From assembly GCA_031262165.1 (NCBI GenBank), contig JAISIF010000038.1, positions 1 through 41,401 of the forward strand: a stretch of DNA of 41,401 bases. Direction: 5' to 3'. Below the pieces are notes generated by a model, which did no database searches, had not been told where the DNA came from, and saw only the letters and a list, made by a program, of their open reading frames with translations. This document shows positions 7,404 to 12,333 of this stretch, in pieces. The stretch is from Myxococcales bacterium. Lineage in GTDB: Bacteria > Myxococcota > Myxococcia > Myxococcales > UBA5297. The translations under genes were made by a program, and so were the position numbers. Numbering within the stretch: position 1 is the stretch's first letter; each line of letters starts with the position of its first letter.

Positions 7404-7976
7404 CTACCTGATCTCGACCACGAATCCATTCTCGAAGCGGACGGTCGTCCGGCGGGCTCGATTCAAAAAATATGTCCACAGATCGGCGTCGAGTGAGGGG
7501 GTCTGGTGAATGGGCGGTATTCCCATCGCGTAGAGGACACCTTGCTTCGACATGCCGAGGAAGGCCTTACCCGCCCTGATGCCTTCCTGATCGATCTCCG
7601 GCAAACCACTGACGTCGTCGCACTGCGGAACGAAGAATTGCGAGAAATACTGGATGTGGTCGGCCTTGATATATTTTTCATAAACCCACGTGTATTCGAC
7701 ACCCGTCTCGAGGCGGAATTTGATTCCCCTTTTGTTGGCGCCAACGATCGTGACCGGGGTGCAGCGCGGCAACATGAATTCACTGGGTTTATAATTGACG
7801 TCATAAACGACATGTCGCTTGGCGTCTGGGTGTAGGTTGAATTATGTCTGAACCACGGCGCCAGTCTCCAAATAAGCCAATTCTGGATTGCTGGAGAACT
7901 TCTGCGGACCCGAGGCGCAGGCCGTCACCATGGCCGTCGAAGCCAAAACAAGGGCAATGACAAAAAGCCGTCTCAT
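7404..7976 (-). pseudogene. BamE/SmpA-like lipoprotein gene interrupted by an in-frame TAA
   Basis: An ATG at 7976, preceded by GAGGAG, begins a signal peptide with lipobox VTAC. This frame stops at TAA (7842-7844) after 44 codons. The same frame continues past that stop with FNLHPDAKRHVVYDVNYKP, then a further 120-odd residues to a second stop at 7404. The downstream part has an SH3-like stretch (CTPVTIVGANKRGIKFRLE) and a C-terminal segment like BamE/SmpA folds: LGMSKQGVLYAMGIPP, DLWTYFLNRA and VRFENGFVVEI. One nonsense change in an otherwise intact gene of about 190 codons explains this best. The downstream part has no signal peptide of its own, so it should not be exported if translated alone. 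A sequencing error or stop-codon readthrough are alternatives. The function is unknown; BamE-like proteins help outer-membrane protein assembly. Confidence 0.8.
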
Positions 7977-11351: not shown

Positions 11352-11393
11352 ATAGGATCTGTTTGGATGCTCACTTCTGTTTTTGGAGGAAAC

Positions 11394-11789
11394 ATGTTCC
11401 GATACGTCTTGATTGCAATCATACCAGTATTGGTCGCCACAGCCTGTGGCAGTGAGGACAAAGAATGTGTTGAAACCTACTATGAAACTGAAAAAAAACA
11501 TGCCCTGGAAATTGATATAATCGCCCCAACTGGCAATAATGATCGCCCAGATCATTGGACAGTCACCTGGGCAGATCTTGAAAATCCAACTAATTCAGGG
11601 ATCATGGTCTCTAGCTTTAGCAGAATGCCTGATACATTCGAGGGCCCGATCAATAAAGTGACCAAACTCCGCATCACCGTCTCCTCCCCTGGATTTTATG
11701 ACGAGTCTTTTGATTTTGAATTTGAGAAAGGCGAATGTCTATATAAACGAGATATAGAGGAAGTTCGGATGACAAAAGTCGATTCATAG
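11394..11789 (+). CDS. Small lipoprotein, tandem paralogue 1
   Basis: The start at 11394 has GGAGGAAAC directly upstream and gives a signal peptide with lipobox VATAC. The mature part is about 110 residues. It shares an ordered pattern with the next gene: TVTW-D---P-N-GI, then FEG-I-K--K--IT---PGF, then a final EF-K--C. This suggests one beta-rich domain, perhaps Ig-like, closed by a disulfide. Codon use is clearly AT-richer than in surrounding genes, which points to recent acquisition or relaxed selection. Function unknown. Confidence 0.75.
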   Translation: MFRYVLIAIIPVLVATACGSEDKECVETYYETEKKHALEIDIIAPTGNNDRPDHWTVTWADLENPTNSGIMVSSFSRMPDTFEGPINKVTKLRITVSSPGFYDESFDFEFEKGECLYKRDIEEVRMTKVDS

Positions 11790-11862
11790 GCCTTATCTAA
11801 AATAACCTGAAGAATGCGACATCCATCCAACTCGGGTGGAAGCACTTCTTTTGGGAGGAAAC

Positions 11863-12333
11863 ATGTCTCGATATCTTCTCGTTCTCTTCTCACTGCTGGC
11901 GCTTTGTTTGACCGCATGTGATGGTGAATGCGGCGGGCCATTTGTGGATCGAGATCCAGGATCCTCAAAAAAAGCACATGATTTTTCTCTTCGCGTCACA
12001 TATTCTAAAATATATTTGGAAACAGGCGCCTACGTTCTATCAGATCAAGAACGCATCGATAATGCTACGGTGACATGGGTTGATGCCGCTCATCCAGAAA
12101 ACACTGGAATCATCACTGGAATAAATGGGGATTATGGTGTTTTTGAAGGCGGGGACATTGAAAAAGCAAATAAAATCCACATAACCATCACCGCTCCCGG
12201 ATACATTGAGATGTCATTAGATGTTGAATTCAAGAAAAACAGCTGTGATCTATACTACGGTCATACCGAACACGTATATCTCGAAAAAGACGAACCAGCG
12301 GCTATTGACGATACGCTGGACGAAGAAGCCTGA
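11863..12333 (+). CDS. Small lipoprotein, tandem paralogue 2
   Basis: The start at 11863 has the leader GGGAGGAAAC, nearly identical to that of the preceding paralogue, so the duplication included the ribosome site. The signal peptide ends in LTAC. The 156-residue product keeps the shared pattern ATVTWVDAAHPENTGI, FEGGDIEKANKIHITITAPGY and VEFKKNSC, with a longer N-terminal insert and an acidic C-terminus (DDTLDEEA). It is AT-rich like its partner. Function unknown; a secreted surface or adhesion-like role is only a guess. Confidence 0.75.
   Translation: MSRYLLVLFSLLALCLTACDGECGGPFVDRDPGSSKKAHDFSLRVTYSKIYLETGAYVLSDQERIDNATVTWVDAAHPENTGIITGINGDYGVFEGGDIEKANKIHITITAPGYIEMSLDVEFKKNSCDLYYGHTEHVYLEKDEPAAIDDTLDEEA

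Follow-up and report, generated by a model that had tools for sequence, protein, structure and literature searches.

A single in-frame TAA codon splits a predicted SH3-fold and BamE-like lipoprotein gene in a Myxococcales genome

Introduction

A cysteine in a lipobox, at which the signal peptide ends, is the mark of bacterial lipoproteins. Among the described families, the closest to the gene considered here is BamE (SmpA-OmlA; Pfam code PF04355). Like the members of that family it is predicted to encode a lipoprotein, and its C-terminal part resembles BamE, but it scores below the Pfam cut-off and carries an SH3-fold domain in front. Its state parallels that of a young bacterial nonsense pseudogene: a single stop interrupts the frame, the homologues within the genus are whole, and decay has gone no further. 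Compared with such pseudogenes we see nothing distinctive in it. A further parallel is offered by reporter genes in Escherichia coli, for which the available part of one study describes low-level readthrough of premature TAA codons, with Gln among the inserted residues, and gives TAA as the stop least often read through and a following T as lowering readthrough (PMC11126739). The gene resembles these reporters in that a premature TAA interrupts a frame that is otherwise intact; it differs in that its stop, in the UAA-U context that is the least permissive in that part of the study, is not conserved (PMC11126739).

The split gene and its predicted domains

The split gene lies on the minus strand, which is its coding strand, at 7976..7404 of the window (the whole 41,401-nucleotide stretch of DNA that was analyzed). 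Translation of this interval yields 44 residues, a TAA at 7844-7842, 145 residues, and a TAG at 7406-7404. The N-terminal piece of 44 codons (7845..7976, minus strand) starts at ATG 7976, directly upstream of which is a GAGGAGA that by eye resembles a ribosome-binding site. It begins with a lipoprotein signal peptide ending at the cysteine of a V-T-A-C lipobox (residues 17-20, by eye); Cys20, following V-T-A, is invariant in 5/5 sequences of our alignment (A1) and leaves 25 mature residues, which extend into the strand that opens the SH3-fold domain (E41-44 in the modeled orthologue from the genome G002). This piece has no match in Pfam. The in-frame TAA, followed by a T, occupies codon 45 (7842..7844, minus strand). 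The open frame after it (145 codons; 7407..7841, minus strand), in which neither a second stop nor a frameshift is present, completes the SH3-fold domain, encodes the BamE-like domain at the C-terminus, and runs to the natural stop TAG (7404..7406, minus strand). The first in-frame ATG past the TAA (7773..7775, minus strand) opens an ORF at 7404..7775. We accordingly predict from sequence features an outer-membrane-type lipoprotein comprising a signal peptide with lipobox, an SH3-fold domain, and a BamE-like domain. Because the TAA directly follows the first SH3-fold strand, the first piece would be able to form neither domain. Elsewhere in the window, two adjoining small lipoprotein-like frames on the plus strand (11367-11789 and 11836-12333) are alike by eye and are probably a tandem duplication.

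At the sequence level, the Pfam BamE model (PF04355) matches the window frame with an E value of 2.8e-4 and 21.1 bits, under the cut-off of 23.2, and the orthologues from the genus score 13.6 and 19.5 bits, both likewise under the gathering cut-off. In a genome-wide search with the same model the gene scores 21.8 bits, again under the cut-off; the source genome has no PF04355 match over it, the split gene being the sole entry listed. A paralogue in the source genome (G000:C15) has no match in Pfam. NCBIfam gives no match to the window frame and, across four proteins, a single one below cut-off, that of TrbK to the G001 orthologue (E 0.17). A profile search of the PDB returned 15 weak matches, all of them to BamE (E 0.23-0.42).

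For structural comparison, the G002 orthologue was modeled with AlphaFold2 from a 6-sequence alignment (mean pLDDT 81.8). The model has predicted strands at 41-44, 55-57, 72-78, 82-87, and 92-96, followed by helices and three C-terminal strands. Foldseek on its own gave no PDB match with an E value of 0.001 or less. SH3 domains make up most of the aligned rows for residues ~31-119 (best Z 6.5); the C-terminal part aligns with the BamE chains 5wam_B (Z 5.7, rmsd 2.9, 56 aligned residues, 34% identity) and 7tsz_E (Z 5.3, rmsd 2.7, 55 aligned). Among the rows listed, BamE chains have Z scores of 5.2-5.7 over 55-56 residues, and values below 8 may reflect only a common arrangement. From the model, the family may be described as having an SH3-fold domain first and a BamE-like one after it, with structural scores in a range that may mean little. 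The sequence-only reading had called the gene BamE-like; this holds for the C-terminal part and has to be qualified by the score below the Pfam cut-off and by the SH3-fold domain in front.

Homologues and the residue at the stop

Two other genomes of the same genus (G001 and G002) were compared with the source genome, G000, a draft from a gut-type myxobacterium. The intact G002 protein aligns over residues 1-188 straight through the TAA (55% identity, E 2.4e-67, with one TAA inside the alignment). This bears out the earlier proposals that a single in-frame TAA at 7842-7844 splits an otherwise intact gene and that protein-like sequence lies on both sides of it. Both genus orthologues are single-frame proteins, 188 and 190 residues long, with their own signal and lipobox, so that intact copies are found in 2/2 of the other genomes of the genus. 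After the stop, the frame is identical to the G002 protein at 88/143 and to the G001 protein at 73/144 aligned positions; a 123-residue query from this part gives identities of 66% and 53%, respectively. The comparison of homologues at the stop position that the sequence-only reading had proposed returns Gln in both genus orthologues and Arg in the two paralogues, one each from G000 and G001. As a Gln codon is one transition from TAA, a single base change suffices to restore the gene, as had been suggested.

The G002 protein, searched against five family genomes (the source included), matched in 5/5, with nine matches in all. The window copy is the sole one carrying a stop; the other eight have no internal stop. 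Homologues occurring as two genes, with the second bearing its own export signal, had been named as the pattern that would speak against a broken gene, and these eight matches do not display it. The paralogue in the source genome is unbroken and shows 41% identity across the query. The post-stop query matched in 6 of 40 genomes, counting the source genome, and in two of these (G004 and G039) it gave two matches inside one frame; by eye, the SH3-BamE-like unit is doubled in one chain in both (L005 and L006). A scan of named genomes gave six loci in total: one in a sheep-colon Myxococcaceae MAG, a 100% match to the G002 copy, two in UBA1203, and one each in a Desulfobacterales MAG, another Myxococcales MAG, and a Cellvibrionaceae genome. 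The homologue in Cellvibrionaceae AOL6 (L027:2850-3500) is also broken, its N-terminal part and the rest lying in different frames that meet near an A run; a sequencing error, a frameshift, or slippage could each produce such a break.

Stops, frameshifts, and the genetic code across the genome

As a control, 81 stretches of the source genome (1.01 of 3.02 Mb, the window included) were compared with 60 stretches of G001 (1.17 Mb), giving 233 non-overlapping orthologue pairs with 78,766 aligned residues and a median identity of 58%. A stop occurs in 4/233 alignments, which need not reach the gene ends and which include the window, itself picked for its stop; three of the four lie within ~11 codons of the end of the alignment, leaving the split gene as the only one with a stop in mid-gene. 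In the reverse comparison, with G001 as the subject, 9/222 pairs contain a stop, most near alignment ends, the exceptions being one in mid-gene beside an unknown base, one in a 28%-identity match, and one in a 66-residue piece. Frameshift candidates number 3 with the source genome as subject and 14 with G001, counted before overlapping ORFs were removed, so that some represent the same place repeated. Over the stretches compared, nonsense codons are not widespread in the source genome, and its sequence is not generally defective.

Of the 231 gene matches compared, 20 have TAA as the next stop in frame, and TAAT occurs just once. The release factors RF1 and RF2 both score over the cut-off and are free of internal stops. 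No stop-reading anticodon, and hence no suppressor tRNA, was found among the 34 of 39 tRNA matches whose anticodon was read; those left out of the count are C87:558, C187:4895, C187:9325, C153:488, and C60:4837, the last having no ARAGORN gene. Given this TAA usage, the intact RF1 and RF2, the lack of a stop-reading anticodon among the tRNA matches read, and the one mid-gene stop, the genetic code is standard. Among the same 34 tRNA matches, the sole Gln anticodon is CTG, with no TTG, which may reflect the incompleteness of the draft.

Explanations for the stop

We consider it most likely that a point mutation turned a sense codon into TAA and that the assembled strain truly carries the stop, as an ordinary, recent null allele of an accessory gene, a reading that we hold with fair but by no means full confidence. 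Next in rank comes an error of the draft consensus or assembly, through sequencing error, strain mixture, or thin coverage, with the gene intact in the living strain. This is possible though rather unlikely: the assembly is a draft in 214 contigs (completeness 96.39%, contamination 1.77%), its two nearest same-genus records are MAGs, and the defect is a single base in an otherwise healthy gene, but no other mid-gene stop is present in the 233 pairs, which are drawn from a third of the genome, and of just three frameshift candidates two have a long query gap or a weak second piece. With so few stops and frameshifts in the control, the consensus looks generally clean. A search for literature on premature-stop pseudogenes as against sequencing error in metagenome-assembled genomes found none.

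The other explanations take the stop as functional or as no stop at all. Programmed or tolerated readthrough, which would yield some full-length lipoprotein, is very unlikely. The open and conserved-looking frame past the TAA is consistent with it, as is the description, in the available part of the E. coli reporter study, of premature TAA codons being read through at a low level with Gln among the residues put in (PMC11126739). Against it stand the TAA-T context, the least permissive case in that part of the study (PMC11126739), the Gln, Gln, Arg, and Arg found at the stop column in the four aligned relatives, the folding of the 81 nt around the stop, which is no better than that of shuffled sequences (z 0.15), the eight other family matches free of internal stops, the presence of RF1 and RF2, and the lack of a stop-reading anticodon in the 34 of 39 tRNA matches read. 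The more specific idea that UAA-U readthrough gives low but useful amounts of the protein, the stop acting as a dimmer for a surface lipoprotein, is a shade less probable again; no relative shows it. The sequence-only reading had named programmed readthrough beside a fresh null allele and an assembly error. The single nonsense codon in an otherwise intact gene stands, and programmed readthrough finds no support in the context, the fold, the relatives, or the normal termination machinery. It is still harder to credit that the gene became two, one for a small lipopeptide that is secreted and one for a cytoplasmic protein made from the internal ATG 7775. A 123-codon frame with an ATG start does exist and has a promoter-like match upstream, but such matches are near shuffle level (2 versus 0.8, sd 0.9), the internal Met is not conserved (Val, Leu, Ile, and Val in the other four sequences), and a start there would remove the conserved N-L-H and N-Y segments and leave the product without a signal peptide; the genus orthologues are single proteins, and single-frame homologues led us to reject two separate genes. 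Finally, the chance that TAA is a sense codon in the source organism is negligible: nothing beyond the split gene itself speaks for it, and we rejected reassignment on the 20/231 gene matches that end in TAA, the one mid-gene stop in 233 pairs, and the presence of both release factors.

Under the favored null allele, a point mutation would have converted the codon that is Gln in the genus orthologues to TAA, and translation would end after 44 residues, leaving an acylated stub of 25 residues. The remainder of the protein would not be made, or a weak internal start would yield no more of it than a fragment lacking the signal peptide; the loss may be cushioned by the intact paralogue that the genome carries at another locus. 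Because no further damage is present, we regard the event, with modest confidence, as recent. In simulations, the post-stop frame stayed open in 0.71 of runs at 10 random substitutions, 0.50 at 20, and 0.24 at 40. Relaxed selection after the stop was also considered, and relative-rate counts show no clear excess: unique post-stop changes number 15 in this gene and 14 in that of G002 with G001 as the outgroup; taking the paralogues as outgroup instead gives 16:11 and 15:10. For the pair formed with G002, dN is 0.30 and dS 2.0, and for that with G001 dS is not estimable; as synonymous change is near or past saturation, dN/dS is of little use here. Third-position GC, at 0.68 for the whole frame and 0.70 after the stop, ranks within the bottom few percent of the 240 genes compared. 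This sequence also departs from the other four at six columns where those agree, the same count for those four being 2, 3, 0, and 8. The low third-position GC and the six altered columns are weak signs that could mean a longer period of relaxed selection.

Implications

If the stop is not real, the locus is mainly a warning that an automated annotation might enter two spurious genes at this place. If it is real, this strain would be able to do without the gene, perhaps thanks to the paralogue, and the stop would mark a recent gene loss in a lineage whose genome measures 3 Mb, beside genomes of the same family that measure 7.6-8.7 Mb.
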